Below, one piece after another: positions 18,401 to 44,622 of a stretch of 64,000 nucleotides of DNA. The stretch covers positions 1,499,001 through 1,563,000 of the forward strand of contig JAYJMM010000119.1 of assembly GCA_037349105.1 (NCBI GenBank). The letters are read 5' to 3'. Made by a program: the position numbers and the translations under genes. This DNA is from Limnomonas spitsbergensis (lineage: Eukaryota; Chlorophyta; Chlorophyceae; Chlamydomonadales). Within the stretch, counting starts at the first letter, position 1, and the number at the start of each line of letters is the position of its first letter. The notes below the pieces were generated by a model. It saw only the letters and a list, made by a program, of their open reading frames with translations. It ran no database searches and had not been told where the DNA came from.

Positions 18401-21400
18401 TCTCTCCCTGCCCTTGGGTCCACGTCTCCCCTTGCCCTTGGGTCCACGTCTCTCCCTGCCCTTGGGTCCACGTCTCCCCTTGCCCTTGGGTCCACGTCTC
18501 TCCCTGCCCTTGGGTCCACGTCTCCCCCTGCCCTTGGGTCCACGTCTCTCCCTGCCCTTGGGTCCACGTCTCCCCTTGCCCTTGGGTCCACGTCTCCCCC
18601 TGCCCTTGGGTCCACGTCTCTCCCTGCCCTTGGGTCCACGTCTCCCCTTGCCCTTGGGTCCACGTCTCCCCCTGCCCTTGGGTCCACGTCTCCCCCTGCC
18701 CTTGGGTCCACGTCTCCCCTTGCCCTTGGGTCCACGTCTCTCCTTGCCCTTGGGTCCACGTCTCCCCCTGCCCTTGGGTCCACGTCTCTCCCTGCCCTTG
18801 GGTCCACGTCTCCCCTTGCCCTTGGGTCCACGTCTCCCCCTGCCCTTGGGTCCACGTCTCTCCCTGCCCTTGGGTCCACGTCTCCCCTTGCCCTTGGGTC
18901 CACGTCTCCCCCTGCCCTTGGGTCCACGTCTCCCCCTGCCCTTGGGTCCACGTCTCCCCTTGCCCTTGGGTCCACGTCTCCCCTTGCCCTTGGGTTCACG
19001 TCTCTCCCTGCCCTTGGGTCCACGTCTCCCCTTGCCCTTGGGTCCACGTCTCCCCCTGCCCTTGGGTCCACGTCTCCCCCTGCCCTTGGGTCCACGTCTC
19101 CCCTTGCCCTTGGGTCCACGTCTCCCCCTGCCCTTGGGTCCACGTCTCCCCCTGCCCTTGGGTCCACATCTCCCCCTGCCCTTGGGTCCACGTCTCCCCC
19201 TGCCCTTGGGTCCACGTCTCCCCCTGCCCTTGGGTCCACGTCTCCTCTGCCCTTGGGTCCACGTCTCTCCCTGCCCTTGGGTCCACGTCTCTCCTTGCCC
19301 TTGGGTCCACGTCTCCCCTTGCCCTTGGGTCCACGTCTCTCCCTGCCCTTGGGTCCACGTCTCCCCTTGCCCTTGGGTCCACGTCTCTCCCTGCCCTTGG
19401 GTCCACGTCTCCCCTTGCCCTTGGGTCCACGTCTCTCCCTGCCCTTGGGTCCACGTCTCCCCCTGCCCTTGGGTCCACGTCTCTCCCTGCCCTTGGGTCC
19501 ACGTCTCCCCTTGCCCTTGGGTCCACGTCTCCCCCTGCCCTTGGGTCCACGTCTCTCCCTGCCCTTGGGTCCACGTCTCCCCTTGCCCTTGGGTCCACGT
19601 CTCCCCCTGCCCTTGGGTCCACGTCTCTCCCTGCCCTTGGGTCCACGTCTCCCCTTGCCCTTGGGTCCACGTCTCCCCTTGCCCTTGGGTCCACGTCTCC
19701 CCCTGCCCTTGGGTCCACGTCTCTCCCTGCCCTTGGGTCCACGTCTCCCCCTGCCCTTGGGTCCACGTCTCCCCCTGCCCTTGGGTCCACGTCTCCCCCT
19801 GCCCTTGGGTCCACGTCTCCCCTTGCCCTTGGGTCCACGTCTCCCCCTGCCCTTGGGTCCACATCTCTCCCTGCCCTTGGGTCCACGTCTCCCCTTGCCC
19901 TTGGGTCCACGTCTCTCCCTGCCCTTGGGTCCACGTCTCCCCTTGCCCTTGGGTCCACGTCTCCCCTTGCCCTTGGGTCCACGTCTCCCCCTGCCCTTGG
20001 GTCCACGTCTCCCCCTGCCCTTGGGTCCACGTCTCCCCCTGCCCTTGGGTCCACGTCTCCCCTTGCCCTTGGGTCCACGTCTCTCCTTGCCCTTGGGTCC
20101 ACGTCTCCCCCTGCCCTTGGGTCCATGTCTCCCCTTGCCCTTGGGTCCACGTCTCCCCTTGCCCTTGGGTCCACGTCTCCCCTTGCCCTTGGGTCCACGT
20201 CTCCCCCTGCCCTTGGGTCCACGTCTCCCCCTGCCCTTGGGTCCACGTCTCTCCCTGCCCTTGGGTCCACGTCTCCCCCTGCCCTTGGGTCCACGTCTCC
20301 CCCTGCCCTTGGGTCCACGTCTCCCCCTGCCCTTGGGTCCACGTCTCCCCCTGCCCTTGGGTCCACGTCTCCCCCTGCCCTTGGGTCCACGTCTCCCCCT
20401 GCCCTTGGGTCCACGTCTCCCCCTGCCCTTGGGTCCACGTCTCCCCCTGCCCTTGGGTCCACGTCTCCCCCTGCCCTTGGGTCCACGTCTCCCCTTGTGG
20501 AGGTCGCAGGTCTGCCTGTCAATGGTAGCCCCGTGGTCAGAAACAAGTATTGGCCACCGCGCATGGGGACATCTGTTCGCCACTAGAACACAACCCTCTG
20601 ACCAGTGGTATACCAGTGGGCATCGATCCAATGGATGTCTATACTAGGGGAGGCTGAGACGTCCCTCATAGCTCCACTGTTAGGGCATCCAGGGAGAAGC
20701 CTGTAAAACGTTGGGGGGGGCTGGTGGCTACTGGAGCTGTTGCATCATCTGGCTGAGAAGGGCCTCAGCCATGGAAAATAAGCTTAAACCGAAAACCCCA
20801 AACCCTCAACCTCTGGAAAATACCTACTTGACTGATGTCGCTGCCGGTGTACACTTTCCTTTGATCTTGTTCAGGGGTTTGTGGATCATATCGACGATGA
20901 TGGAGGCAGTGCCTACTCTGCCTCTCTCACCCCTCTTCCAACAAACCAATGAAACGCAGGCCCACCGGGATCGCCCACCCACTCCTACGCATCCTATTTC
21001 CCCGCACCCCCCCCGATGAGCCCCAGCAACCTCAACCCGAGGTGAGCACAGGAACTGCTGGCTGGCTGGCTGGCTGGCTGGCAGCGGTGCGCTAGGGACT
21101 GCGACATATCTGGGGGCAGGGATGCCTTGTGATGAGCAGCGTATGGGTTTGAAAGGGTGTGCAACAGTGTGGCATGTATGCAGGGCTATTTTAGGGTTTT
21201 GGTTTGGCTAGGGTATGAAAAGTTGCATGCATGCTTGGCTAGTTCAGAATGCGCGGTTTGGAATGGACGGGGCATGCTTCCGACAACATGTTAAATGCGT
21301 TTGCTTGGCTAGCTTACCTAGCTCATTCTGGGGCGGCCCAGGAAACTGTGTACCTTGTTTTTGTCAGCAGGGCGGCACCATGGAGTGCTCGGCAGCAGGC

Positions 21401-24129: not shown

Positions 24130-24610
24130 CTGACGAGTCAAACTCTCGAGAAGAAAAAAAGCAAGAGAGGAAAGGGAAAGGATCAAAGGAAGCCAAGGTC
24201 CACCCCAAATGTGTGGTACGGTACCGTACGTGTCAATGTCGTTACTCTTCTGGGCCCTGCTCAAGAAAAGGCTCGGCCGCGTGGGCGTCTAATTTTAAGG
24301 GGGCAGGACAAAAGAAAAGTGAACAAAAATAAACATGGGTTACAAATAACAGCATGCACTAGGTGCAGCGCCGGCTAGACAGTTAGCATGCCTAAACCAA
24401 AGGGCGAAACAATTCACAACAGTCCTAATCAGAGTCTGGAGTCTGACCAAATAATCTGACACATGAAGAGATCACACCCAGATTATTGACGTTACACCTC
24501 TGGGCGATGCTGAAATGAAGCTCGGCCACGTCGGCAAACAAAAAGACAGCTAGGAAAGTCAAGGGAGAGGGCAAAAGAGTAAAGAAAGGATCACGCCCAG
24601 ATGTGCGATT
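24130..24610 (-). repeat. Dispersed repeat family, copies in tandem
   Basis: At least one clear copy (about 24485-24595) matches 43035-42926 on the opposite strand at about 85-90%, with the shared block GGAAAGTCAAGGGAGAGGGC and the block GAAATGAAGCTCGGCCACGT. A more decayed copy lies at 24130-24290. The end motif CCCAGAGGTGTAACGT (reverse orientation here) also recurs in the tandem repeat at 52512-52771. No coding capacity was seen. Confidence 0.7.
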
Positions 24611-30045: not shown

Positions 30046-31484
30046 AATGCGCTTAGCCTTCCGCTAGGATCAGGACGACAATGGCAGCATGAAACTGAGG
30101 GGCCAGGGGGCGAGAATTGTGAGCACGGGAGGAGGTTGTGCGGATCAACTAGGATCAGAGTGCCACTAATGACGTGGCACTGCAGGGTGAGCATGAGAGG
30201 GGGGATAGGGGAGGGAGGGAGGCTAGGGGAGGGAGGGATAGGCAAGGATCAGGCTGCCATTATTGGTGGCTTGAAATAGTGGGAACCTGGAGATAGCGAG
30301 ACTGGGGACGGGAGTGGGGGATCATTGGCGGCATAGGGCTTAGAAATCAGAGGGGTACAAGGGGGAGAGGAGGTGGTGTGGGGCATGAAACTGAGGGAAG
30401 TGGGAGGGAGCAAGGGAAGGAGAGAGATAAGTGGCATAGAACGGAGGGAACAGGGAGCAAAAGAGACAGGGAAGGCGGTATGGAACTGAGTGCACAGGAA
30501 GCAAAATATAGGGAGGGAGGACGAGAGGAGGGAGGAGGCGGAGTGGGGCAAGAACATGCAAGGTAGCTGTGACACATCCAGTAAGAAATCCAGACAGCAG
30601 CAGACAACCCTGACTTATCCCCCACGCCATATTTGGGACTCGGAGGGGAAAGTCCTGACCATACACTCCCAAAACGCCATCTAGTCATTATGAGTGTGAT
30701 CCCGTCTCGTCCTCTCGTCAGTGCAGGTCGGCAGGAGCGAACACGCCCTGCCATCAGAGCTTCCTTTACGCAAGAGCACTCAAGGGCGCTGGTTCCCACA
30801 CTTAACAGCCCTCCTCCAAACACAACCTAAAAGACAGAGCCAGTGACTATCATCGACAATTTCAAATCTCTGGAAAGGAGTAACAAAACATATGCTGTCT
30901 GGCAGAGTAACAGAAATCTACGCTGTCTGACTAATAAACAAATGTGCGGGTGCTTGCGCCACCGCCTACTATGTTACTGCCAGCATACCTGCTACTTAAA
31001 CTGCCAGTTTTCCACCTCAGGCACAGCTGCCAGAGGCTCGGCAGGTGTGTTTCCAGGCCATTACAGCTTTCCCCAGCCTCGTCACCTGCAGCATGCGCAG
31101 ACTGTGCATGAGGCCTAGGATGGAGTGCTCTAGGTATAAAGTGAATATACTGTGGATAATGTAGGGGGTGTCAGGCTGGTGAGTCAGTAGTGGAGGGTTG
31201 AGCATTACGATGCACGTGGGGGGCGGGGAGAGGGGTAAGGTGCATGGTACAGCTGTGGTCGGAAGATGGGGCGGAAGAGGGTGCGGGTGCAAATGCTTCT
31301 TAAGGATAGGGGTCAAGTAGGTCAAGAGTTCACTTGTCCAGCGCCCAACCAGAGAGAACGTTGGAGAGTCCGCAGGCATGGTTGGGAGGCCCTGGTTTTC
31401 TGCAACTTGTAGTTGAACTTTTTGAGGCAAGTCTCTTCAGGGGCAGTGGATACGCTTTGCCTAACCTTTGTGTTCTTGTTGTTT
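30046..31484. other. Spacer left of the retrotransposon, purine-rich
   Basis: No gene supported. The plus strand is strongly G/A-rich from about 30185 to 30560. The sequence runs directly into the left end of the retrotransposon at 31485. Confidence 0.4.
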
Positions 31485-31545
31485 TGTCGCGGCACAGAGG
31501 TGCACCCTAAGGAATGGGTGCACCAAGCGAAAAGAACACAATACA
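31485..31545 (-). repeat. Split repeat B2 (61 bp, outer left end)
   Basis: Copy of B1 (32279-32339) with one difference (ATACA versus AGACA near the right edge). It directly abuts A2. It contains the perfect inverted repeat GGTGCACCC / GGGTGCACC with an 8-base loop. It marks the left end of the element. Confidence 0.9.
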
Positions 31546-32277
31546 TTCTTAAACAAGTACTAATAAACTCTTACAGAGCTTATAGTAAGAGCTTCTCGAT
31601 CCACTGCTGTAACTCAGTGAAATCAGCTCGATAACAGGTGATAGCTCTTGCTACTTCACCTGGACTTCTTCGATACTGTTGACAAGATCTCGTAAAGCCT
31701 CGACACTTGAGGTACTTATGGGTTTCTTGGGACGATCTTGGGCGATTGTGGCCGTTGATCTGTGGTGATGAGTCGCTTGCTTGGCGACTTCTGGTGACTG
31801 CAGATATCTCTGATAAATCAGATGGTCGACTTGGAGCCAAAGGAAAGGCTGTAGATTGGAGGTGTGATGGTGGGTTGGTGGTAATATCCAGCTGTAGACT
31901 GGAGATATGCCTTGTTAAGAGGCAGGAATAACGCTAATTGCTGCAGATGGTCGACTGTTGGCCTAGATGCTCTGCCAGCTTCGTATCAGGAGACTTGTTG
32001 ATGCTTATAGAGTCGCTGTTGGCCTAGTTGCTCTGCCAGTTTCCCCTTAGTAAGACTTGGATTGACGATTAACTTGCAGATTGATAATCAGGAACAATAG
32101 CTAGAAACGTTAAGAGTCTATTGTAGGCCGTGAGATCTAAGTAAGAAAGAAAAAGTAAAGGACCCAGATCGGAATCCTCTAAGACGGCACCCACACTTGT
32201 TCAGGTTCACACATAACTTCCAACCGAAAAAGCAGTTGGCGCAGTCAAACGCACGGTGCAGTCATACATCGTGACAG
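31546..32277 (-). repeat. Split repeat A2 (732 bp)
   Basis: Identical to A1 at 42168-42899 apart from one base. It corresponds to the body of an LTR and presumably carries transcription signals. The antisense frames at 31580-31840 and 31707-31931 recur in A1 and look non-coding. Confidence 0.95.
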
Positions 32278-32278
32278 C

Positions 32279-32339
32279 TGTCGCGGCACAGAGGTGCACC
32301 CTAAGGAATGGGTGCACCAAGCGAAAAGAACACAAGACA
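32279..32339 (-). repeat. Split repeat B1 (61 bp, internal)
   Basis: Lies one base from A2 and next to the polypurine tract. In the element's direction B1 + G + A2 reads as one 794-bp LTR-like unit beginning TGTCTTGTGTTC. It contains the same GGTGCACCC / GGGTGCACC hairpin as B2. Confidence 0.9.
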
Positions 32340-32352
32340 TTCCCCCCCCAGG
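32340..32352 (-). promoter_or_regulatory. Polypurine tract beside B1
   Basis: In the element's direction this reads CCTGGGGGGGGAA, directly before the TG that opens B1. This is the position and composition expected for plus-strand DNA priming in an LTR retrotransposon. Confidence 0.6.
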
Positions 32353-33039
32353 TCGAAAAACACTGGAGGCAAGAATAAACAAGTACGACAGCGTTTTAAG
32401 AACTGCGTATTGTTATCAGACTTCCCACCCCTGGGCCCTGCCCAGAGTCCATGGGGCACAAGTACCGGTAGGAAAAATAACCTCCGATATAATGCGTACG
32501 TTAGCTGTGACTTTTACGCATTACCGTAACTCGCCACAGTCGCTTTAAGGGACCCTCTTCAAGCTGAAGAGCCCAGTTCTCGTCACCATCGGTACTGTTC
32601 ACCTTCCCCCAGGGCCCAATCGACCCCAAGTCCAGAAGACTACATCAGCCCTGCTCTAGTGCAATTGGTTTCCCAATCCACACCATCTCAAACTTCCCGA
32701 CCACCTAACTAACACCTGATCGGGGATGCCTATAGGCTCGCGCCAGACATATGAGAATGTCACCTCACGGTAGACACCTCCTAAACCCTATAAGTGCGTA
32801 TTATGCACAACAACCTTTCCCCCCCCAGATATTGAAAACTGCACACAATTTTTGTTTTGTATTGTTTGAAATCAAGTATCATCCTAAATATCAGTTTCAG
32901 CACCAGTAAAGTCAAATCCCATTTCCCCGAAGCCCCCCCCAGATCCAGTGAAAAGTTCGCTCAGGTACACAGTCAATTGTCAAAGTCAACGAAGGAAACT
33001 CAGTTAAATTCTGTCACAAGAAAGCAGTACGCTAATGTA
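32353..33039 (-). other. Untranslated 3' region of the retrotransposon
   Basis: About 690 bp between the pol stop and the polypurine tract. No ORF with a domain was found in either direction, and in particular no tyrosine recombinase. Confidence 0.6.
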
Positions 33040-36000
33040 TCAACGGATGAACGTGTGCATTGGTGGGATCATCCGAGCGCGGATAGCTGCCGATGCAAAC
33101 ACAAGGATCCATACTTTATTGCTACAGCAACCGTGAATGGACCGGTTAACTCCCAGACCTGCTGTGAAGCTGACAGACTGCAAAATGACAAGCCGCCTTT
33201 CTCTCCGTAGCTGGGATAGCCACTCAAACCTTGCAGGATGGCACTTTAGGAAATCTTGGGTGACTAGGCAGCAGGCCACATGACGCGCGTACTTGACCGC
33301 AAAGGCACATGAGATATCAGCATATTCAGCCGGAGGGTTTGTGATAAGAACGTGCAGCCCATGCTGTCGCAGCAGAAACTCGTAGGTGGAGGGTTGCAGC
33401 GGATCAGAACAGTAGTCTGCAGGAACGTTGACACCGATGCCCGAATTGGTAAGAACATGGAGGGATCGAGGGTAAGGGTAAAGCTGGCTGTTCTGCAGAA
33501 GTTCAGTGGCTTGCCCATTATCCTTGAACAGCAAAAGAATGCTGGGGGACAGGGATAGGTCAAGGCAGTCCAGTAGGGTGTTGCAGTCGCTGTCTTCAAT
33601 GGTGAGAGGTGAAGGAGGGTGGAATTGGTACGACCATCCTCCCGGCACCCTGTTGCCCAAGTAGACTGCAGCCTCATCGCGCTCTCGCCACACCCCAGGC
33701 ATCAAGGACTTGAGAGCATCCACCGCATCTCTGCGGACACCCCAGTTGATGAAATCTGAGGGCACCCAAGGATGAGTGACATGGCTTTCAAACCTCTTGT
33801 TGGGGACGCGTATTCTCACGGACGCACGGGTAGGGCGCTGATCATCAGGTTGCGCCTCCTCAGCGATTTCCTCCTTGCTGACAACTGCGCCGGTCCCGGC
33901 AAGCTCAATCGCATTGCTTCCGGCACCGCCCGCGGCGGTCCCGGCAAGACAATCTGCGTCATCCTCCCTGTCTACAGCGGGTCCTTCTCCTTCATCCTCA
34001 ACAAGGCCACCGCCATTGGCGGCTCCCATCACCCTTCCTGCCTTCTTTTGCTTAGCAGGCCGCAGCTGGTAACCTGTCACGGCAGCCGCTGGTTCCTCCA
34101 GTTCCGCCGCAACATCACGCCTTGCAGCACCAGTAGCATCCGCTCCAGCAGTCCTACATTGCTCACAAATCCAGTAACCAGCGGGGACAGTAGTAAGCCG
34201 TGGTACCAAACAATACGTGTGAGTGCCTCGACCACAACTGCCACACAGAATCATTTTCTTAGCGTTATCAGGCAGCAGACATCTCTGACAAGGGAAATCT
34301 AGTGCTGGCTTTTGCCATCTTTTGGATGGGGGTAAGAGTCCCTCTATGGGCAGATGACATGGTGCGCAGTTAATGGCGTTCTCAGCCACAGTCACCCCAT
34401 TGCGACCAACCAGGATAATGACTCCACTTGGCCGTACATCAAACACCCGAAGCACGTAAGGTCTTGCAGTGGAGTGCAGCCGGTTCTCATCCCGCACATA
34501 CACAAACTGCCCCTCAGTATACTTAGCTATTGATGGGAGGTAACCTCCACTACGAAGTCTTGCGTAACGCAGGGTATCTCGCTGTTGAGCAACCAGAAGA
34601 TTCTGGCCGACCATCACACAGTTCTTGGCTAGCAATTCAGAACGGGACAGTATAAGTTCAGCAGCAGAATCCACATCCAGGTAATCCACTGCCTGATCCC
34701 CATTCAACCTTTCCATGATAGCGGGAGGGATGACTGGTTCACAGGAAAACAGCAGCTGGTAGGGACTCATCAAGGTGCTAGCATGCTTAGTGACTCGGTA
34801 CCCGAGTGCTATCCAGGGTAAATACATGTCCCATTCTCGAGGCTCTCTTGAAACGTGCAAGTGCCTTGATAATGCAGTTTTTACAGTCTTTACCAGCCTT
34901 TCCGCTTGCCCATTGGCTTGGGGATGGAAAGAACTGGTGACTCTATGATCAATCATGGCACGGACAAGCAGCGAGTCCATTTCACCCTGAAACTCCCCAC
35001 CACCGTCTGTGACAACTTCAGCGCATGCCCCAAATCGTGCCAATATGCCGTGCAGGAAATGGTAAGCTACTTCTTTAGATGATTTAGCAGTCATAGGAAA
35101 TACCTCAACCCATTTAGAGTAGCTTTCTACAGCTACCATAACATAGGTGTGGCCACGGTTAGAGGCCGTATAAGGACCAGAAAGATCCAGGTGCCAGCGG
35201 TACATAAGTCCTCTGATGGGTAAGGGATGCATAACGGGCTGCATAGCATTAAACGATACTTTAGTGTAATCACAGGCCTCGCAGCACTGGACCACTCTTT
35301 TGCAGTCGTTATATAAACCAACCCACCAGTGAGTCATCATGACAAGCCCCGTCGTGCGGCGCCTGCCATAATGACCATTTTCTACATGCATTTTGTGCAC
35401 AAGTGCCAACCGGTCACCAGGGGGTGGTACCACCTTGGTTGTACCGCCTGGCATTCGTCGATATAGAATATTCTTTTCCGAAGACCAGAGATAGAGCGCA
35501 GCTCGTCGTTGAAGACGCTTGCGTTCTACAGGGGTCAGTATGGGCAACATTGTGTCAGTGGAACGCCTCAAATATTGCATAGCATTGTTATCCAACCAGA
35601 TATCTGCAAATGACTGAGACTCTTCCTCACGAGTCATGGGTTGCTCTATGAACTCAGCCGCTAAGGACTGAGCTGCATGTAAGATCAGGGAATCTCCAGC
35701 AGCAAATAAATGATTAAGCTGCTGAGATATCTGATCACTATCCCCCCCCAGCTCCAGTCCTGAAGTGGCAAAGGAATGAGGGAGAAAGTTATTGAATGCA
35801 GAAAAAAATTCCTGCGAAGGCGGAACATCTGCAAATCGAATTGCAATTCCAACAGCAAGCAGGTGACTGACAGCATTTGCATCAAAAGCGCCTCCAACGA
35901 TCCTGTGACGCACAGAAAAGATCAGGTCTTTACCCGCAGTACAGTCAGTCGCATATCCCATGGCACGCTCCCGTTCATGAATAGTCAAAGCATGTCTGGT

Positions 36001-39000
36001 GACAATTCCTGTTTGATCAGTTTCCAAAACAAGTCCAGGTTCATATTCAGGATTTGGACGAAAGGCATAAGATTCAATCCTTGCAACCATCGTAGGAAAA
36101 ACTCGTAGAGGTTCGTTCAATATGTTGGCCGGATGATATGGGTACCTGTTAACTTTGAAACAAGTACGGGGTTCTCTTCCATGATCCAGGATGTCAGTCA
36201 GGCGCAATGTATCATCACGGACAAAGGACATCATAACCAACTGCAAAGAAGCGGGGGAACATATATTTTGCCAATAATTATGAAGCCTGTGGGCATAGCT
36301 ACCTACAGCAACAGCGTCAAAGCATACTGTGTGTCCCAGTCTCTCAGTAAGTTCCTGGAATCCTTCTGTCATAGCCTGCGATTTTGCAATAGCAAATTGT
36401 ACAGCAACATTCTCAATGAGGTACATGGGTGGTCGTCTCCCTTGTTGCATATGCTGTAGAGATCCTAGAATTTTAATAAGAGGGGAAAATGTGGAACTTT
36501 TCTCTCCTTGTAATCCTGTACGTTTCCCTGCAGAAGACAGGTCAGTGCACATAAACCCTGCTGTTAGCATCCACTGGGTACCATCAAGACATCCAATGTT
36601 AATGAGATGTCTTTCATTTATATCGTACACATCTTGCGGCAGTTGGTTGAATGTGTCAGCAATAGCATCATGACCCAACAGATTGGGATATTCCTCCATG
36701 AGCAACTTAAGTCTGTGCTTGGCACAAACCCTTGCGCCATTATCAATGTCAGCATAGTAATAGTGGTTGATGCGGATGCCATTTCTCAGCATGCATTCTA
36801 ACCCTCCGCACATACCACCAAACAGCTCAATCAATGACACACCTTCTTGCACAGCAGTAAGAATGCTGGTTTGAGGAACAGGTGTAGAATTTATTGATTG
36901 AATCCCTTTTCCAGTAAGATTGCCCTCTTTCGACAGTTCTTGCACCTGCAGTGAAGTATAGTGGGAAGGAGGCAAATCCTGCAAAAGCAAGCGGCAATCT
37001 TCAACTCTTGAAGAAGCTCTTCCTCTGAGAGCTTTTTGTTTCTCCGACAGCGTTTCCATGTGCGGCACATGAATGCGAGTGGAAAATGAAGAAATACCAT
37101 TAATTTCGAAATCAAAAGCAGCTGCAGTATCAAATGCATTACAGCAACTCATATCATCCATGTCGTCAGGAATCATCAGTTTAGTAGCCAACGAATGAAT
37201 GTGGTTTGTAAGAGATGAGCCGAAGGTGGGAGAAGGCCAAATAGCTCGGGTTCTAGGTAGACCTGGCCACTCGGTAGGTGAAGGAAAAGTCATTTCAGCA
37301 TCCTCAGCAATCATTTGCAATCCAGCAACACCTTGCTCCACATCAGGAGCTGGATCAGGATCAATTGCGGGGCCAAAGGGTTCTATGGCAAATCCCCACG
37401 GGACTGCACTCTGGGGAGTTCTTGACAAACAAGCAGCCATAAGGGAATACGCTCTTTTAGAACTATTAGCAGTCAAATCAGTGTCTACACCTGATCCACA
37501 GAATGCAGAGTTGTAGTAAAAGGGCCACGTCGTTGCGAAGTGACTCTCTTTTGTGCCTGTCCAGTCCAGATCTGACTGAACAGGGAACCTGCTGGGGACA
37601 TCAGCAACAGTATGTTTAACTCCTGGTTTGTATTCAAGCTCATATGAGAATGGCGAAAGCATGACAGACCAGCGAGCATACTGCCCCTCTAACTCTTTAT
37701 TAGACATTAACCAAGACAATCCTTTATGATCGCTTATTATTAGAAATGATATTTTAGCCCCAAGCAGATAATAGCGGAAGGCTCTCACTCCCCATACTGC
37801 GGCCAACATTTCTCCCTTGTAAGACCCATAATTAGCCTCATGCACATTGCAAGTCCTGCTGATGCAGGTTACTAGATATTCCTTTCCATCATCATCTTTT
37901 TGACCCAGAACGGCTGACATGCCTTTCTGGGACCAATCTGTGTGAAGGATGTAACGGCGATTTTTATCAGGTGTGCGCAACGCGTTACCAGGTTTGCAGA
38001 GTTCATCTTTTAGGTGTTCCCATGCCTTATCCCTCTCAGCTGTCCACAGCCAAGGAGTGTCCTTCTTAAACAACTCTGTAAGGGGGCTGGAGATGACAGA
38101 AAAGTTAGGAACATAACATCGGTAATAATTAGCAAAGCCAATGACACGACGCAGTTCATGCACAGTAGTGGGCGTGGGTAGAGCCCTGATTGCCAAGACC
38201 TTGGTTTCACTAGGTGAAGTACCTGTGGTTCCAATCATGTGGCCCAGGTACTCCAGGCTGTTAAACAGAAACTTGCATTTTCCTGGATGCACCTTCATAT
38301 GACAATTCTTGAGGGCAGCAAACAGCAGTTTAAGTGCAGCTTTGTGTGATGCAAGATCTTTGGTAAAGACCAGGATATCATCTATAAAACATACACAACA
38401 GTGATCAAGGCCTGCTTCAGTTATTACAGTATTCATGACTCTCTGGAAGTATGCAGGCATATTAGTAAGGCCAAAGGTATTTCGGTTAGTCTTCCAACAC
38501 CGATCATTCCACCAGAACGCAGTCATGTCCCTGCATTCTTCAGACAGTGAAGTTTGACCGAAACCTGATTTCATATCACAAACAGAGAACACAGTACAAC
38601 CTTCAGTCCTTCCAAACAATTCTTCAGGCAAGGGTAGAGGGTACACGTCGGGAGGTGTAAAGGCATTAATGCCTCCAGATGCTTTACCATAATTAATACA
38701 GCATCTTTTATCAGTCCAAGCGCCAGTCACGGGATCCTTCTTGGCAGCTATAACTGCTTCATGTATCATAAGGGGCCGAGGACACTCACTGATGAATCCA
38801 GCTTCCATGAGAGGGGTCATGTGTTCGTCCATAACTTCTTTCTCCATGGGTGACCTCCTGCGAGCCTTTCTGAGAATAATACCTGGGGGCAAAGTTATAG
38901 TCTCTCCAGGGGGACCTATGGTGAAGGGAAGAACTGATCCTTCATAACCTGTCAAGTCAGACAATTTATAAGCGCTTTGTGCCTGGATAATATCTCCTAG

Positions 39001-39348
39001 TTCATCCTGGAACTGCTGCCTCTCAATCTCACTAATATCAGCATGATTGCCCAGGGTCCAACCTTGTTCCATCTTGAAATGTTTATCAGGTTCTACAGGA
39101 TCTGCTGGACTATCAGGTGTCATATTATCTAAAGACCAAGATCCCTCAATAGGGACTCCTTCGTGAAGCTCATCAGGTGACAACAGGTCATTCAACAACG
39201 CTGGATCTGTGTAATGTTGAATATCTGCTGAGTAAGAGATACCTGTCTGCGTGATCAGTGAAGATCCTAATACTTCTCTTGAATACTGGTCTCGTGCGAT
39301 GCTGCGGGTTAAATCAAAAAACTGAGCTGGGGCATTGTGAGTTCTCAT
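33040..39348 (-). CDS. pol: Pol polyprotein: RT, RNase H, C5-DNA methyltransferase, integrase, PHD finger, N6-MTase-like domain
   Basis: 2,102 aa, replicates and integrates the element. Reverse transcriptase about 155-375: first Asp in SVCDMKSGFG (D258), FIDD at 321-324. RNase H about 463-590: D471, E513, D540. C5-cytosine methyltransferase about 836-1185: motif I ELFGGMCGGL (841-850), catalytic Cys C934 in GFMCTDLSSAG, ENV (979-981), AHRLHNYW (1019-1026), ERERAMGY, and ANAV near 1157-1160. Integrase: HHCC zinc finger (H1321, H1326, C1356, C1359), then D1388, D1448, E1483. PHD finger: C1687, C1690, C1702, C1705, H1710, C1713, C1728, C1731 (C4HC3). C-terminal domain about 1925-2090 has a TNPPAEYAD motif like motif IV of N6-adenine methyltransferases, with Ala where an aromatic is usual. 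No D-S/T-G protease was seen. The start is the ATG 35 bases after the gag stop, in another frame. Confidence 0.93.
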   Translation of the reverse strand: MRTHNAPAQFFDLTRSIARDQYSREVLGSSLITQTGISYSADIQHYTDPALLNDLLSPDELHEGVPIEGSWSLDNMTPDSPADPVEPDKHFKMEQGWTLGNHADISEIERQQFQDELGDIIQAQSAYKLSDLTGYEGSVLPFTIGPPGETITLPPGIILRKARRRSPMEKEVMDEHMTPLMEAGFISECPRPLMIHEAVIAAKKDPVTGAWTDKRCCINYGKASGGINAFTPPDVYPLPLPEELFGRTEGCTVFSVCDMKSGFGQTSLSEECRDMTAFWWNDRCWKTNRNTFGLTNMPAYFQRVMNTVITEAGLDHCCVCFIDDILVFTKDLASHKAALKLLFAALKNCHMKVHPGKCKFLFNSLEYLGHMIGTTGTSPSETKVLAIRALPTPTTVHELRRVIGFANYYRCYVPNFSVISSPLTELFKKDTPWLWTAERDKAWEHLKDELCKPGNALRTPDKNRRYILHTDWSQKGMSAVLGQKDDDGKEYLVTCISRTCNVHEANYGSYKGEMLAAVWGVRAFRYYLLGAKISFLIISDHKGLSWLMSNKELEGQYARWSVMLSPFSYELEYKPGVKHTVADVPSRFPVQSDLDWTGTKESHFATTWPFYYNSAFCGSGVDTDLTANSSKRAYSLMAACLSRTPQSAVPWGFAIEPFGPAIDPDPAPDVEQGVAGLQMIAEDAEMTFPSPTEWPGLPRTRAIWPSPTFGSSLTNHIHSLATKLMIPDDMDDMSCCNAFDTAAAFDFEINGISSFSTRIHVPHMETLSEKQKALRGRASSRVEDCRLLLQDLPPSHYTSLQVQELSKEGNLTGKGIQSINSTPVPQTSILTAVQEGVSLIELFGGMCGGLECMLRNGIRINHYYYADIDNGARVCAKHRLKLLMEEYPNLLGHDAIADTFNQLPQDVYDINERHLINIGCLDGTQWMLTAGFMCTDLSSAGKRTGLQGEKSSTFSPLIKILGSLQHMQQGRRPPMYLIENVAVQFAIAKSQAMTEGFQELTERLGHTVCFDAVAVGSYAHRLHNYWQNICSPASLQLVMMSFVRDDTLRLTDILDHGREPRTCFKVNRYPYHPANILNEPLRVFPTMVARIESYAFRPNPEYEPGLVLETDQTGIVTRHALTIHERERAMGYATDCTAGKDLIFSVRHRIVGGAFDANAVSHLLAVGIAIRFADVPPSQEFFSAFNNFLPHSFATSGLELGGDSDQISQQLNHLFAAGDSLILHAAQSLAAEFIEQPMTREEESQSFADIWLDNNAMQYLRRSTDTMLPILTPVERKRLQRRAALYLWSSEKNILYRRMPGGTTKVVPPPGDRLALVHKMHVENGHYGRRRTTGLVMMTHWWVGLYNDCKRVVQCCEACDYTKVSFNAMQPVMHPLPIRGLMYRWHLDLSGPYTASNRGHTYVMVAVESYSKWVEVFPMTAKSSKEVAYHFLHGILARFGACAEVVTDGGGEFQGEMDSLLVRAMIDHRVTSSFHPQANGQAERLVKTVKTALSRHLHVSREPREWDMYLPWIALGYRVTKHASTLMSPYQLLFSCEPVIPPAIMERLNGDQAVDYLDVDSAAELILSRSELLAKNCVMVGQNLLVAQQRDTLRYARLRSGGYLPSIAKYTEGQFVYVRDENRLHSTARPYVLRVFDVRPSGVIILVGRNGVTVAENAINCAPCHLPIEGLLPPSKRWQKPALDFPCQRCLLPDNAKKMILCGSCGRGTHTYCLVPRLTTVPAGYWICEQCRTAGADATGAARRDVAAELEEPAAAVTGYQLRPAKQKKAGRVMGAANGGGLVEDEGEGPAVDREDDADCLAGTAAGGAGSNAIELAGTGAVVSKEEIAEEAQPDDQRPTRASVRIRVPNKRFESHVTHPWVPSDFINWGVRRDAVDALKSLMPGVWRERDEAAVYLGNRVPGGWSYQFHPPSPLTIEDSDCNTLLDCLDLSLSPSILLLFKDNGQATELLQNSQLYPYPRSLHVLTNSGIGVNVPADYCSDPLQPSTYEFLLRQHGLHVLITNPPAEYADISCAFAVKYARHVACCLVTQDFLKCHPARFEWLSQLRRERRLVILQSVSFTAGLGVNRSIHGCCSNKVWILVFASAAIRARMIPPMHTFIR

Positions 39349-39383
39349 ACTGTTAACAGGTGTGAACAGGAATGCTGTGGCTA

Positions 39384-41573
39384 TCAGCCTGCACTAGATC
39401 TCACCTCCGTGGCATGACTCCGGGGTGTAGCATGCTGACCAGAATTCTGGTTTCTTCTTCCAGCATCCTTGCTTCCCTCTGCAGTCAGGTCCTCATACCT
39501 GATACCCTTCCTGACCTGTGTCCTCACACGGTACTCATAGGCATTCTGCATGGCCTCAATGATCACACTTGCCTGGACCCTGAAGTTGTCATCTTCAACA
39601 CCCAAGCCCTGCAGCTCTCTCTCACACACCTCCTGGAGGTACACTGGTACACCACGCATGATCACATCAATGATAGATGTCCTCTCAATCGTCCCGTTGT
39701 AAGCGATCTTGTTAGACCCCTGAAACGCTGAGTAAACTGACAGACACCTGATCCCAAACTGCCTGGGGTTCTCGCTGACAAGTACCGTCCTGTCAAGCTG
39801 ATTCTGCTTACCCATGATGCAGCCCTGGGTCCAAATAGCCAATTCAGCTGATGTCGCAACGTTGAGGTAACGCTTGGCTACCATCAACAGGGCTTCGATA
39901 AAGCTGTACGGCTCATCCTGTAATGGATAAGGCTCGTACTCTCGTACCCCAGCCTCCTCGACCCCCATCAGGATCATTTTATTCCTCCTCATGTTCCCCA
40001 TGATGGTCTGAGTGCCATCCTGCAGGAAATCATTCCTGGTACTGCCGTCCCTGCCCTCAATGGCTCTCATCAGGGGCGGCATTGCACTGGGGCACAAATA
40101 CTCTAGCTCTGCGAAGTGCTTCTTGAGAAAAGCAACCCCTGCTGACAGAATAGTGCTCATGATGATGCTCACATGGGCAGACACAGCATCGTGCAGCCTG
40201 TGCACGTTATTCCCCCAGAACAACCTGAGTGATCGGTCCCATATCCTGTGAGAGATAATGCTCTCAGTCGCTGAGAACTCAACAACCTTGGACGAGTCAA
40301 TCACAGTCTTCCCATCTAGCTTGACATCAGTCAACCAATTTACTGGTCCTGGTGCGGCACTCTCTGAACCAGGGCGTCCACCAGGATCACCTCCTGTAGG
40401 AACTTGGCTCCTGGCAGGGTCTACTGACCCGTGCAACACACCATGTCTTGACACCCATCTGTGACCGGGAGGCTGACCCCCACCCGAAGGTGGTCCACCA
40501 TTAGGTGGTTGGTTACCTCCTGCTGGCCCCTGACTATAGCCAGTTCCTGTCCCACCTCCGTGGAACTCACCTCGGTCTTGATGTCCATGCCGCAGGTTCT
40601 GATTCGTGCCCTGCCCTTGCGACTGACCTTGATATTGATCATGCCCTTGACCCTGATTGGTGCCTTGACCTTGGCCAGAGGACCGGTGCTCTCTTTGATT
40701 CTGACCAGAATCTCTCACAGGTGGAAACCCATTCCATGTTTGCTCTCTAGGTACCTGCTGAACAGGCCTGAACCTACTCTGGTCCTCTTGAGAAGGCTCT
40801 TGGTAGCTGCGTTCCTGGGACGGTGCAGCTGCCGTACCTCTGGTGCCTGCCCGCAGGGGCTCACTGGTCATTGCAGCCGCTCTAGCTGCATCCTCACCTT
40901 GCTGTCGGCGATCATATTCCAGTAGCAGTCTCTGGCCAAGCGCCGCCCTATCACGGGCTGCTCTAACCCTGGAGCTATCCAGACCAGAACCACCTAGACC
41001 CTGAGTGACAGGAGTATTCCAATTGGAATGCTCGGTGCCCGCAGCCGTATGAAACGACTGTGATCCAGCAGGTCCCGTGAAACGGTTACCTTGTTCCTGA
41101 GGTTCTCCAGCGGTGACATCATCCCCGGTACTTCCCCCAGATCCTTCAGGCTCTTCCGACACGGACGTCAAACCTTGCATCCGCGGAACAGAATCTTCAT
41201 TTCGTCCAGACTGTGGGTAGCCTGGTACGTTATGCGTCTGTCCAGCCGACCTCGCAGGAACTTGCGTCGGCGGTGGTGGTGGTGGTGGCGGTGGCGGACG
41301 TGATGATCCGGATTCCGCACCATGACCTTCTCTTCTCACAGATGCACCCTGAATTGGCGCAGCATTGGAGGGAGGGACAGAAGCGGCAGCAGCAACAGGC
41401 ACGAATACTGGGATGTCCGCAACAGGCGCATGCACAGGCGCTGCAGACTGCATTGGAACAGTGACCTCGGGAGCACACGTGGATGCTGTTACTGACTCGA
41501 CAGAGCCAGCCTGTGAACCACCATCACTAGCAGTGTCAAACACTGGTACTGCCAGTCGTGTAGCAGCCGTCAT
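39384..41573 (-). CDS. gag: Gag-like structural protein of the retrotransposon
   Basis: 729 aa. The first 400 or so residues are low-complexity: a nine-Pro run, then Gly/Gln/Asn-rich QGQG repeats. The remaining 320 are structured and mostly helical in appearance, beginning near NWLTDVKLDGKTVIDSSKVV and running to the C-terminus; this is the likely capsid-type region, inferred from position. There is no CCHC zinc knuckle and no protease motif. It ends TGA; pol opens 35 bases downstream in a different frame. Upstream, ORF0 is in the same frame and separated from gag by a single TAG and 17 open codons. Confidence 0.75.
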   Translation of the reverse strand: MTAATRLAVPVFDTASDGGSQAGSVESVTASTCAPEVTVPMQSAAPVHAPVADIPVFVPVAAAASVPPSNAAPIQGASVRREGHGAESGSSRPPPPPPPPPPTQVPARSAGQTHNVPGYPQSGRNEDSVPRMQGLTSVSEEPEGSGGSTGDDVTAGEPQEQGNRFTGPAGSQSFHTAAGTEHSNWNTPVTQGLGGSGLDSSRVRAARDRAALGQRLLLEYDRRQQGEDAARAAAMTSEPLRAGTRGTAAAPSQERSYQEPSQEDQSRFRPVQQVPREQTWNGFPPVRDSGQNQREHRSSGQGQGTNQGQGHDQYQGQSQGQGTNQNLRHGHQDRGEFHGGGTGTGYSQGPAGGNQPPNGGPPSGGGQPPGHRWVSRHGVLHGSVDPARSQVPTGGDPGGRPGSESAAPGPVNWLTDVKLDGKTVIDSSKVVEFSATESIISHRIWDRSLRLFWGNNVHRLHDAVSAHVSIIMSTILSAGVAFLKKHFAELEYLCPSAMPPLMRAIEGRDGSTRNDFLQDGTQTIMGNMRRNKMILMGVEEAGVREYEPYPLQDEPYSFIEALLMVAKRYLNVATSAELAIWTQGCIMGKQNQLDRTVLVSENPRQFGIRCLSVYSAFQGSNKIAYNGTIERTSIIDVIMRGVPVYLQEVCERELQGLGVEDDNFRVQASVIIEAMQNAYEYRVRTQVRKGIRYEDLTAEGSKDAGRRNQNSGQHATPRSHATEVRSSAG

Positions 41574-41624
41574 CTTTGACGGAGTTCCAGTATTTGCACA
41601 CCTGACACTCTCCCTTCTAAGGTA

Positions 41625-42095
41625 CTAATACACAGGGTTGGGCAGCAGCATGTTTAGTTTCTCTGAAGTCTCATCGTCAGTGACAGCCCTTGTCACCTTT
41701 TTAGGTGACACTGCCAATGCAGCCTTTAACGCTGCATTCCTTTCATCTAGCAAGAGATCCTTCTTGTCATTGAGCTCGTCGTACTCCTCCTTGCTACAGT
41801 TAAGAGCTAGGTTTTTCAACTCCATCTCTGCCAAGTCCACTGCTTCCTGCTTGATCCTCACGGAGTCCATGCATGCCTGATCAGTTCCGGCCTTGTTATA
41901 AAGCTTTTGCCAATTAGATATGAATACCTCAATTAACGGTACAGGGAGAGACGAGGGTTCTCCATTACCCTTAGGCTGCACCTTTGCAGCTCCCTTTGCC
42001 GCTAAAGCACCCCTCGTGTTCTGAGCAACACTATCCGTTGCTATCTCCTGAGCGACTTTGGGCACTTCTACAGCCCCTGATCCGCTCATCTTCAC
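41625..42095 (-). CDS. Small ORF0 upstream of gag
   Basis: 156 aa, the first ORF after repeat A1. Lys/Glu/Asp-rich, with a probable helical or coiled-coil stretch (SVRIKQEAVDLAEMELKNLA, then KEEYDELNDKKDLLLDERNA). It ends with TAG at 41625-41627. The frame then stays open into the gag ATG at 41573, so one stop codon separates the two. It may be an N-terminal part of gag made by stop-codon readthrough or separated by a mutation. No known family recognised. Confidence 0.6.
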   Translation of the reverse strand: MKMSGSGAVEVPKVAQEIATDSVAQNTRGALAAKGAAKVQPKGNGEPSSLPVPLIEVFISNWQKLYNKAGTDQACMDSVRIKQEAVDLAEMELKNLALNCSKEEYDELNDKKDLLLDERNAALKAALAVSPKKVTRAVTDDETSEKLNMLLPNPVY

Positions 42096-42167
42096 CTTTT
42101 TATCGGCTTTAGGACGACCGATTTTCCACTACAGTCGACTAGAGGCGATCCTAATCGGACTTTTTCT

Positions 42168-42899
42168 TTCTTAAACAAGTACTAATAAACTCTTACAGAG
42201 CTTATAGTAAGAGCTTCTCGATCCACTGCTGTAACTCAGTGAAATCAGCTCGATAACAGGTGATAGCTCTTGCTACTTCACCTGGACTTCTTCGATACTG
42301 TTGACAAGATCTCGTAAAGCCTCGACACTTGAGGTACTTATGGGTTTCTTGGGACGATCTTGGGCGATTGTGGCCGTTGATCTGTGGTGATGAGTCGCTT
42401 GCTTGGCGACTTCTGGTGACTGCAGATATCTCTGATAAATCAGATGGTCGACTTGGAGCCAAAGGAAAGGCTGTAGATTGGAGGTGTGATGGTGGGTTGG
42501 TGGTAATATCCAGCTGTAGACTGGAGATATGCCTTGTTAAGAGGCAGGAATAACGCTAATTGCTGCAGATGGTCGACTGTTGGCCTAGATGCTCTGCCAG
42601 CTTCGTATCAGGAGACTTGTTGATGCTTATAGAGTCGCTGTTGGCCTAGTTGCTCTGCCAGTTTCCCCTTAGTAAGACTTGGATTGACGATTAACTTGCA
42701 GATTGATAATCAGGAACAATAGCTAGAAACGTTAAGAGTCTATTGTAGGCCGTGAGATCTAAGTAAGAAAGAAAAAGTAAAGGACCCAGATCGGAATCCT
42801 CTAAGACGGCACCCACACTTGTTCAGGTTCACACATAACTTCCAACCGAAAAAGCAGTTGGCGCAGTCAAACGCACGGTGCAGTCATACGTCGTGACAG
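42168..42899 (-). repeat. Split repeat A1 (732 bp, outer right end)
   Basis: First element repeat in the transcription direction. It lacks the 61-bp B segment expected at the start of a full LTR-like unit; the flank (TTTGGTGGGTG on the plus strand) follows directly. Next to its inner edge the sequence (AGAAAAAGTCCGATTAGG in the element's direction) does not resemble a tRNA 3' end complement. Confidence 0.95.
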
Positions 42900-42925
42900 T
42901 TTGGTGGGTGAACTTGCTATCCTTT

Positions 42926-43035
42926 TTTTCCTTTGTGCCTTCTCCCTTGACTTTCCTAGCTGATTTTTGTTTGCCAACGTGGCCGAGCTTCATTTCAGCA
43001 TGGCCCAGAGGTGTAACGTCATTAACTTGTCCAGC
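42926..43035 (+). repeat. Dispersed repeat copy next to the retrotransposon
   Basis: Matches the reverse complement of 24485-24595 over about 105 bp. It ends with CCCAGAGGTGTAACGTCATT, a motif found again in the 59-bp tandem repeat at 52512-52771. The retrotransposon inserted about 25 bp to its left. Confidence 0.7.
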
Positions 43036-44622
43036 GCGAGCTCCTCCGCAGCACCGGAAGGTGCGGCACTTTCATCAGAGCGCTCCCCTGGGGGCTACAC
43101 ATACAGGTATGCAACGTTGCATAGCCTTGGATGATGATCTTGTGGTCAAAGTCAACGTCGAGGACGAGAAGAGAGGCCGGCCAACTGGTCAGTTCATACC
43201 GTTTGTGTTTCATTGTTTTTGATTTTTCTGGCTTCCGCCTTGCTGGGTATTGAATAAAAAGTGCCTAGTGTACTCTTACTGGTAGCAATTCTTATAAGAA
43301 ACGAAACAGTATTTTTACACCGAGCTGGTCGGGGAGGGGTACGTGCATGGAAGCTTTGGGCTTGATTTGGTTTCGCGGGAGTCACTGGAAACAGCAAAAG
43401 GTCGTTCGTTCAGCAGGTGTAGGAAGGTGGGCAGGAGCAGGGGCGGGACATACCTTAGGGTACACAAAGCACTGTGCAGTGAAAACAGTCCGTCGTGCGT
43501 TTGTATTCGCCATTTCACACTGTTTGTGTCTTAGAAGCTGCCTTGAACATGCACCAGGTACAGCACATGACCCTCAATGCCTCACTCTACCTGGCCCATG
43601 CCGTGGGGTACCGGTATAGGACATCTGAAGTCCAATCATGCATGCAACAGCAGCGGGAGTGTGGATGCATGCCATGTGCGCCTGACCGTGCGAGCTTAGC
43701 CTGACCGTGCGAGCTTACGAAGGCTGGTATGGTATGGATCCATGATTACCTCATGTTGCGGTGACTCTGACAGCCCCAAAGTTGGAATGCAGGGGGGATT
43801 CAGAAAGAAGCGCATGGGTGACGCGTTATGGCCTTTGCGGGCATGACGACATGACGTTATGAGAGTATGAGACCAAGGGGGAAATCGAATGCAGGGAGGA
43901 CAAATACTATATGAGTTATGTATGAATATCTAAAACTGGACATAATTGAGGCATGAGAGAGACAATACAGCGCAATGTGCTGGCCACTGATCCCGTTGGT
44001 GTGTACTGTGTATCCAGAGACCTCTGCTGATATTTGTATTTGTATATCCGTACTCTAGGCCTTGGAAATTGGAATGATGTAAATACTTGCGACGAGCCTT
44101 CACCAATCCAAAGCTGGTGCACATGGCCCGATGCTGGCCTGCGAGTTGCAACCCTCGACAACGTTTAAAATCATGATTTGGTCGTGCGCAAAGCAATCAT
44201 TAGTATACAGCAGGATAAAATGCTGTACATTTTTGCGCGAAGCAGAGATTGCGCAGGGAGATCGATATCGGGGGGAGATCGCCTTCGGTAAATAGCCAGG
44301 ATTTGAACCCTCGCCCGAACCACGAAAATTGCGGCTCACGATTGGCGCCTGATTGGCGCATTGCAAATGCGCGCATTTGCATGCTTATGTGCAGCATTTC
44401 AAATGCATGTGTTGTCACCAATCCAGTATAAGCATATGATCAGCTTATATCGACGATAAAGAAGAAAAATTCCATTCCAAGGGCATACGTTACTACAAAT
44501 CTTCTGAGCAGCAAATCTCCCTTGAAAAAATCCCAAGGTGGAGTTGGACATAGCAGTGCAGCATCCGAAAGTACCAACGAACAGAACAAGCTTCACTTTC
44601 CGGCCCTGTATAGCATGCTGAG
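43036..44622. other. Spacer between retrotransposon and the acidic-protein gene
   Basis: Short frames only, no domains. It must contain the promoter and leader of the plus-strand gene at 44623. Confidence 0.4.

Follow-up and report, generated by a model that had tools for sequence, protein, structure and literature searches.

Why would a transposon carry the very kind of enzyme that its hosts use to silence transposons? This open question is raised by a stretch of 64,000 nucleotides from the green alga Limnomonas spitsbergensis (GenBank assembly GCA_037349105.1, contig JAYJMM010000119.1, positions 1,499,001 to 1,563,000 of the forward strand; hereafter the window), in which positions 31485-42898 of the minus strand (11,414 bp) are a single Ty3/Gypsy-type retrotransposon with a domain like the cytosine-5 (C5) DNA methyltransferases (DNMTs) inside its polyprotein, Pol. 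The pairing of DNMT and Pol is widespread in the neighbourhood of the element's reverse transcriptase (RT), is under selection, and is retained in derivatives without an RT found nearby. With about as much doubt as confidence, I favour the reading that this DNMT3-like domain would methylate the element's new complementary DNA (cDNA) before or during integration, the window copy being a probably recent Gypsy-type insertion. The family further offers a comparison of apparently live and dead forms of the enzyme in culturable algae, including the model alga Chlamydomonas reinhardtii, and its split repeats, on an element with a DDE integrase, raise the question how such ends form.

The methyltransferase domain of Pol

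The single open frame of pol gives Pfam matches in the order RT, RNase H, DNA_methylase, integrase H2C2 zinc domain, integrase core and PHD finger (Table 1). The original prediction, made from the letters alone, had recognised, between RNase H and integrase, what looked like a complete C5-methyltransferase, and both the profile match and the motif order agree with it. The domain (METHYLTRANSFERASE) exceeds the cut-off of PF00145 when the whole of pol is searched (E 3.1e-5; 24 bits, cut-off 22) as well as when it is searched alone (E 1.8e-6), and the same family matches 12 of 14 aligned DNMT rows at E <= 0.1. Motifs I (LFGGMCGG, residues 857-864), VI (LIENV, 992-996) and X (HRIVGGAFDANAV, 1163-1175) lie in order with motifs IV and VIII. 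The catalytic cysteine, predicted as Cys934, is residue 949 of the stop-to-stop frame, a shift of 15 that fits a count from Met16. The predicted extent (35794-36843) gave the location correctly but not the limits, as the domain covers about 35824-36936 and thus reaches slightly further at its 5' side.

A search of the Protein Data Bank (PDB) with the single sequence puts DNMT3A on top (E 2.2e-5). With the profile of 14 rows, DNMT3A is found at 2.3e-25, followed by 4onj (2.9e-16), which I take to be a plant DRM, by DRM2 (4.4e-13) and by HhaI (2.8e-11), and no DNMT1 is among the 57 PDB sequences listed at E <= 0.01. The AlphaFold2 model of the domain (388 residues) has a mean predicted local distance difference test score (pLDDT) of 86.2 and a predicted TM-score (pTM) of 0.87, and all 50 matches listed by Foldseek are PDB entries of DNMT3A, 3B or 3C, some of them with DNMT3L. 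By profile and modelled fold the domain is nearest to DNMT3. A DRM-type enzyme was considered and rejected, because motifs I, IV, VI, VIII and X are linear and not circularly permuted, and DRM2 ranks far under DNMT3A; of the DNMT3/DRM side of the family proposed earlier, only the DNMT3 part stands. Nor is the match due to chance, since the listed fold matches are exclusively DNMT3 and at least 109 genomic matches were scored. The assignment to the C5-methyltransferase family is well supported by sequence; enzyme activity is predicted.

All 14 aligned rows, that of the window among them, share the catalytic Cys, the Glu and Asn of ENV and the first Arg of motif VIII. Cys, E and N are also kept in 40/40 rows read from the same genome (family A plus copies at 55-75% identity, one copy being entered twice), and in the window copy and all 40 of these rows the residue before the Cys is Met. 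The form AHRLHNYW of motif VIII, which had been read as closest to the DNMT3/DRM side, turned out to be private to the window copy among 12 printed copies: residue 1038 is Arg in the 11 others, which read AHRLRNYW (eight copies), AHRLRNFW, ANRTRNYW and AHRTRNYW (one each).

Behind the PHD finger, Pol ends in a second domain, whose model (pLDDT 75.7, pTM 0.78) has structure matches mainly among class I S-adenosylmethionine (SAM) methyltransferases; judged from this model, its fold is of that class and of the N6-adenine type. The SAM-binding motif I and [DNS]PP[YFW] are absent from the window's C-terminal domain, which is called degenerate because it has NPPA and no GxG motif. Related proteins have DPWCGTG (P0009) or DPWCGSG (P0014) in this domain, both together with SPWF.

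Copies, derivatives and relatives

In the genome (260 Mb, 124 contigs), a search with the DNMT domain gave at least 109 scored matches out of 944 candidates, 93 of them at 84% identity or more, 4 at 69-75% and 12 at 55-57%; part of these are partial or stop-bearing, and the copy counts are lower bounds, as only the best candidates were scored. A pattern of 29 bases from the start of repeat A occurs 511 times with at most one mismatch, against 0 for the reversed control. Among 57 RT copies (the rows of at least 93% identity and at least 240 aa out of 138 scored, the other 81 being uncounted), 52 are followed on the same strand by the DNMT; the gap is the usual one of about 604 nt in 46 cases and measures 746 to 4,710 nt in the other six. 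The expectation that other copies would bear the same fusion thus holds, and a one-off insertion of the domain is rejected. Conversely, 45 of the first 97 DNMT rows have none of the 57 RT rows upstream; nine of these have a shorter or less similar RT nearby, and 36 remain. In a second Gypsy-type family with a DNMT, about 39% identical, single frames reach up to 5,315 aa (for example C40:531980 and C36:3739800; L011, L019), and motif IV reads GWECQDLS, with Glu before the Cys, in the two copies read.

Genome-wide, the best match to PF00145 is a compact C5-methylase resembling HhaI (L001, G000:C30:293433-294374; HhaI E 1.2e-37). Being HhaI-like and unlike the retroelement enzyme, it was rejected as a member of the family, and by its look it could be of bacterial or viral origin. 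Viral contigs were searched for in the genome and none was found.

The window copy itself is an internal-deletion derivative. A longer copy of 16.5 kb (C41:2817401-2833946, L073) has some 5.1 kb of additional sequence between gag and pol. This stretch completes a 1151-aa gag-like frame, in which a knuckle-like CQICHGDHYLDKC occurs, and also contains a 335-aa frame whose match to an aspartyl protease is below the cut-off (Asp_protease_2, E 0.0016, found in the longer copy only), three more frames and the beginning of a longer pol frame. The three frames, of 271, 254 and 303 aa between the protease-like frame and pol, have no convincing Pfam match. Because this coding region is missing, the window copy is probably not autonomous. 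It also has its own change in motif VIII, and both its activity and its autonomy are doubtful.

In a second class of derivatives (C20, C38, C104, C111 and C41:4290855, with C36 similar), upstream sequence without a match to the window element is joined to pol at residue 628. The junction is the same in 5/5 derivatives, and the DNMT is kept as a frame of its own, together with the integrase region. The pooled ratio of nonsynonymous to synonymous differences per site (pN/pS) of these five is 0.169 for the DNMT (0.129 to 0.301 in nine pairs, one pair having no synonymous change) and 0.070 for the integrase, so that both domains were apparently under selection after the junction had formed. The 7 kb of the C20 copy that were read, all but the last 2.9 kb at its 5' side, gave no gag or RT match; this derivative is likely RT-less. 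Stretches like TTTTAAATTGCAG, resembling a splice acceptor, occur upstream of the residue-628 junction (L089-L092, L074), and splicing may be a route to the DNMT frame in these derivatives.

Among the 82 closest proteins by RT similarity (E <= 1e-40) are sequences from C. eustigma, C. reinhardtii (CHLRE_09g398141v5), Pleodorina starrii, Tetrabaena socialis, Gonium pectorale and Haematococcus lacustris; the named relatives of this Gypsy-type pol are thus chlorophytes, as had been supposed for the element. A DNMT is present in 76 of the 82 (profile E <= 1e-5), Chlamydomonas, Haematococcus and Pleodorina among them, and is at least 300 aa long in 67; a C-terminal domain of at least 150 aa is found in 48, and both domains in 45. 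The profiles were made from earlier matches, which therefore match by construction. The Gonium record stops shortly after the RT without a DNMT match, the Haematococcus records match partly, and in P0117, P0118, P0014 and P0015 the DNMT lies before and not after the RT. Because most of the nearest database relatives also have it, the domain is probably a functional component of the element rather than an accidental addition.

Trees of the DNMT and the RT agree in their strongly supported groupings of elements from this genome and from C. eustigma: both recover the window copy with L051, L053 with L055, the five own-genome copies, P0004 with P0007, and all seven together (the last at 93/88 in the DNMT tree). 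They conflict at P0002, P0005 and P0006, each conflict involving one weak node (81/78 or 87/81), and the deeper forks lack resolution. The rows of the DNMT tree are similarity matches to the domain plus own-genome copies, without an outgroup, and the RT trees comprise close relatives only.

In 30 copies (the window and L022-L050, the next-best 29 matches; 435 pairs), pooled pN/pS is 0.132 for the DNMT, 0.077 for RT-RNase H, 0.109 for the integrase and 0.205 for the linker, so that constraint on the DNMT is weaker than on the RT and stronger than on the linker; towards the 57% copies, synonymous sites are saturated. By these ratios the DNMT domain is under purifying selection. It could still be argued that the element captured the domain as a passenger, which has no role and spread by hitch-hiking, as a stop interrupts it at 1/29 loci, the C36 derivative has lost the Glu of ENV, and several of the at least 109 matches contain stops. 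However, the low pN/pS, the presence of the domain in nearly all RT relatives, the groups common to both trees and its retention in derivatives already disfavour this idea, and I consider it very improbable.

Element ends and surrounding sequence

In element sense the order is A1, gag-like frame, pol, B1, GC, A2 and B2 (Table 1). A2 and B2 overlap by three bases, the inner B1-A2 junction forms the palindrome GACAGCTGTC, and B2 is found at the 3' terminus of five other copies read. The outer termini are TGTC..GACA, and target duplications of 4 bp match in 5/5 copies with both ends located (window, C41, C24, C39 and C20); the C3 copy (L072), whose 3' end was not located, is left out of this count. 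TG..CA termini with a short target duplication, and the order RT, RNase H, integrase with an H2C2 domain and a DDE core, are those of Ty3/Gypsy elements, and no tyrosine recombinase family is among the Pfam matches of the window frames and of six frames of the longer copy. However, a complete identical long terminal repeat (LTR) at both termini is absent from the window element, which has A only at the 5' end and B-A-B at the 3' end. The element is therefore best named Gypsy-type by Pol, with split repeats, its direct repeats having the DIRS-like layout A-coding-B-A-B.

At 14 of 40 scored places of a B2-A-B1 query in the genome, the window included, B1-A-B2 is complete; the others have A-B2, B1-A, or A alone, of which A-B2 would be the expected remnant of recombination between A1 and A2. 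A simple pair of identical 722-nt LTRs is ruled out, as the 64-nt B flanks A2 on both sides and A1 on neither, and the same forms occur elsewhere in the genome. The idea of a solo LTR with a very long target duplication was also dropped, as B2 and A1 are bordered on their outer sides by the 4-bp duplications in all five copies. The layout could be explained by a B-A unit opened at the B/A junction in a two-repeat, circle-like intermediate, and such an opening would also produce the TGTC..GACA termini. Because A1 and A2, like B1 and B2, differ at a single position (Table 1), the window insertion is probably recent.

Table 1. Features of the retrotransposon, in positions of the window
Feature	Position	Strand	Basis or remark
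Target-site duplication GTTT, 3' side	31481..31484	.	same letters again at 42899-42902
Repeat B2, 3' terminus of element (ends ..GCCGCGACA)	31485..31548	-	1/64 mismatch vs B1
Repeat A2, 3' copy of 731-nt repeat	31546..32276	-	1/731 mismatch vs A1
Repeat B1, internal copy, 64 nt	32279..32342	-	GC joins B1 to A2
Purine run GGGGGGGGAA at B1 start, possible polypurine tract	32340..32349	-	read from sequence; putative function
pol frame, 2117 aa (P0001)	33040..39393	-	single open frame, stop to stop
Second, degenerate class I methyltransferase-like domain, residues 1868-2117	33043..33792	-	NPPAEY at 2019-2024; model
PHD finger (PF00628)	34156..34290	-	Pfam E 2e-8
Integrase, H2C2 zinc domain and rve core, D1403, D1463, E1498	34924..35424	-	Pfam; spacing D-34-E
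DNMT3-like C5-cytosine methyltransferase domain, residues 820-1190	35824..36936	-	Pfam, PDB profile search, model
Motif VIII SYAHRLHNYW, residues 1032-1041	36271..36300	-	His1038 where 11 other printed copies have Arg
Motif IV GFMCTDLS, residues 946-953, catalytic Cys949	36535..36558	-	sequence
RNase H (PF17919 / PF17917)	37648..38046	-	Pfam
Reverse transcriptase (PF00078), FIDD motif	38233..38610	-	Pfam E 1.5e-20
gag-like frame, 746 aa, 3' end cut by internal deletion	39384..41624	-	no Pfam match; aligns to 1151-aa frame of longer copy
Deletion junction	39388..39389	-	about 5.1 kb of longer copy C41 missing in window copy
Upstream frame, 167 aa	41625..42128	-	in frame with gag-like frame, one stop between
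Repeat A1, 5' terminus of element (starts TGTCACGAC..), no B after A1	42168..42898	-	sequence comparison
Target-site duplication GTTT, 5' side	42899..42902	.	matches 31481-31484

Immediately past A1, no TGG (a possible tRNA primer site) was seen by eye, and 31000-43500 has no Rfam match. Pairs of inverted repeats, 62 and 46 nt long, lie at 24483-24586 and 42923-43025, the right arms just outside the 5' end of the element, and another repeat may have been its insertion target. Elsewhere in the window, 2 kb at 18001-20000 are pyrimidine-rich and differ strongly between the strands (GC skew -0.386, AT skew -0.736). In a contig of 7.8 Mb, rbcL-like fragments (L093, L094; G000:C39:3753401-3753843), which I take to be of the green (form IB) type, are likely a nuclear insert of plastid DNA. 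These fragments and the names of the relatives fit a green alga as host.

Possible roles and known systems

For the favoured reading, methylation of the new cDNA, the enzyme would have to be active in intact family members and, as part of Pol, would sit beside the cDNA in the particle. There it could mark the cDNA as self-like DNA, so that the marked copy might escape a host response to unmethylated foreign DNA or enter a tolerated chromatin state, and the PHD finger may guide the complex to chromatin.

Several observations weigh against this reading. The ratio of observed to expected CpG is 0.554 in the element and 0.520 and 0.593 in its flanks, and differences of the C-to-T type between copies, more frequent at CG (0.082) than at CHG (0.041) or CHH (0.050), are accompanied by a rise in other CG changes; there is thus no clear scar of self-methylation, because the element lies between its flanks in CpG and the other CG changes rise too. 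These patterns neither show nor exclude self-methylation. A Pro before the catalytic Cys is usual in the C5-methylase family, though it is not itself the catalytic residue; in 68 aligned domains (the 67 relatives with a DNMT of at least 300 aa, and the window) this position holds Glu in 44 and Pro in 14, Pro being absent in 54. Six of the 82 RT relatives have no DNMT match, at least two of which (P0091 and P0115) also lack an integrase match and may be truncated records. To these are added the C36 derivative without its Glu, the KnitGypsy-Dnmt3 enzyme of Klebsormidium nitens, for which no activity was seen in yeast, a result that its authors call inconclusive in the part of the paper available here (de Mendoza et al. 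2018, PMC5890265), and the domains without catalytic motifs discussed below.

Alternatively, the enzyme could act on host chromatin at or near insertion sites by way of the PHD finger and the integrase, silencing or shielding insertions and limiting damage to the host. The position of the PHD finger between integrase and C-terminal domain, its listing in 61 of the 82 RT-nearest proteins, and the nature of DNMT3-type enzymes as de novo methylases would all suit such a role. However, CpG depletion specific to the element is not found and the flanks are no different, and I consider this alternative rather unlikely.

The Cys and the E-N of ENV are kept in 60 of the 68 aligned domains, but both the aligned Cys and ENV are gone in eight (P0078, P0081, P0084, P0085, P0090, P0093, P0094 and P0119). 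C. reinhardtii and Pleodorina domains are among these eight, still inside an open polyprotein, so that catalysis is not needed everywhere. On the RT tree, for which seven of the eight motif-less rows were long enough, one change explains the live or dead state; the enclosing fork of nine rows has a Shimodaira-Hasegawa-like approximate likelihood ratio (SH-aLRT) support of 85 and includes two rows with a short or missing DNMT match. The enzyme has apparently been inactivated in a clade including C. reinhardtii and Pleodorina. The single change on the tree, the retention of the dead domains and the decayed motifs of the window's second methyltransferase fold could all mean that the main role of the domain is non-catalytic, as a DNA-binding or scaffold module of the Pol/integrase complex in which catalysis is optional. 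A purely structural role does not, however, ask for the Cys and E-N that most relatives and all 40 own-genome rows keep, and in P0084, P0085 and P0093 a Cys lies one position earlier, so that an unusual active form is possible in these three. I regard a mainly non-catalytic role as improbable, to a degree similar to that of action on host chromatin.

Methylation of the cDNA can be combined with the dead clade into one scenario, which as a whole I offer as a tentative and rather doubtful one. A long-lived clade of elements in green algae would have fused a de novo C5 enzyme, in more than half of its known members also one of the N6-adenine type, into Pol before the Chlamydomonas and Haematococcus lineages split; the enzyme would set a self mark on the cDNA, and the DDE integrase would insert this cDNA from an intermediate that is circle-like and has split repeats. 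In the clade to which C. reinhardtii and Pleodorina belong, the dead enzyme would have become a structural part of the integration complex.

Green algae were named in 2019, in one sentence of the available text, among the hosts of DAM- and DCM-encoding retrotransposons of the Gypsy or DIRS kind (PMC6338049), so that the bare occurrence in green algae is not new. In the open-licence literature, which misses most subscription journals, I found no described chlorophyte Gypsy-DNMT family, and no account of this family or of its combination of split repeats with a DDE integrase, of its second methyltransferase fold or of the clade with dead enzymes. The DNMT retroelements of dinoflagellates and K. 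nitens are described as independent captures in the part of PMC5890265 available here, and a word search of the text of that paper returned none of chlorophyte, Chlamydomonas, Volvox and green alga.

As far as that text goes, KnitGypsy-Dnmt3 resembles the window element in its Gypsy-type Pol, its unpermuted Dnmt3-like domain, its purifying selection and, per the legend of Fig. 4, its DIRS-like repeat layout (PMC5890265). It differs in that its host lineage is charophyte, and in that the same text names no PHD or second methyltransferase domain for it, both of which the window Pol has. The profile of the DNMT domain reached the K. nitens proteins P0025 and P0041, and the clade of P0025 stands apart with a support of 100/99 in a tree without an outgroup. 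In P0012 and P0013, of the same clade, the DNMT lies behind a zinc knuckle and protease-like sequence (by eye) and has the canonical PCQ, whereas the window family has the order RNase H-DNMT-integrase and Glu or Met before the Cys. Alone against PDB, P0012 finds HhaI only (5e-4) and no DNMT3 at E <= 0.001, which weakens a simple DNMT3 label for this clade. Judging from these sequences, a single DNMT capture common to the window family and KnitGypsy-Dnmt3 is possible.

Mammalian DNMT3A and DNMT3B give the best profile and fold matches and have the AHR..W form of motif VIII. They are nonetheless distant from the window domain: structural alignments give 16-19% identity, the model is longer than the DNMT3 catalytic domain, the proline of PC is replaced, and the Pfam search of pol gave no PWWP or ADD match.

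SymbioDIRS-Dnmt3 of Symbiodinium, whose enzymes methylate CG in yeast, likewise has a Dnmt3-type domain inside Pol and split A-B repeats, but is described in the available text as a DIRS element with a tyrosine recombinase (PMC5890265), whereas the window element has a DDE integrase and 4-bp target duplications. With the DIRS elements that carry a Dam-like adenine methyltransferase, as described in the same part of PMC5890265, the window element shares the split direct repeats and the presence of an N6-adenine-type methyltransferase; unlike theirs, its N6-type fold is degenerate, follows a PHD finger and is combined with a C5 enzyme in a Gypsy-type Pol.

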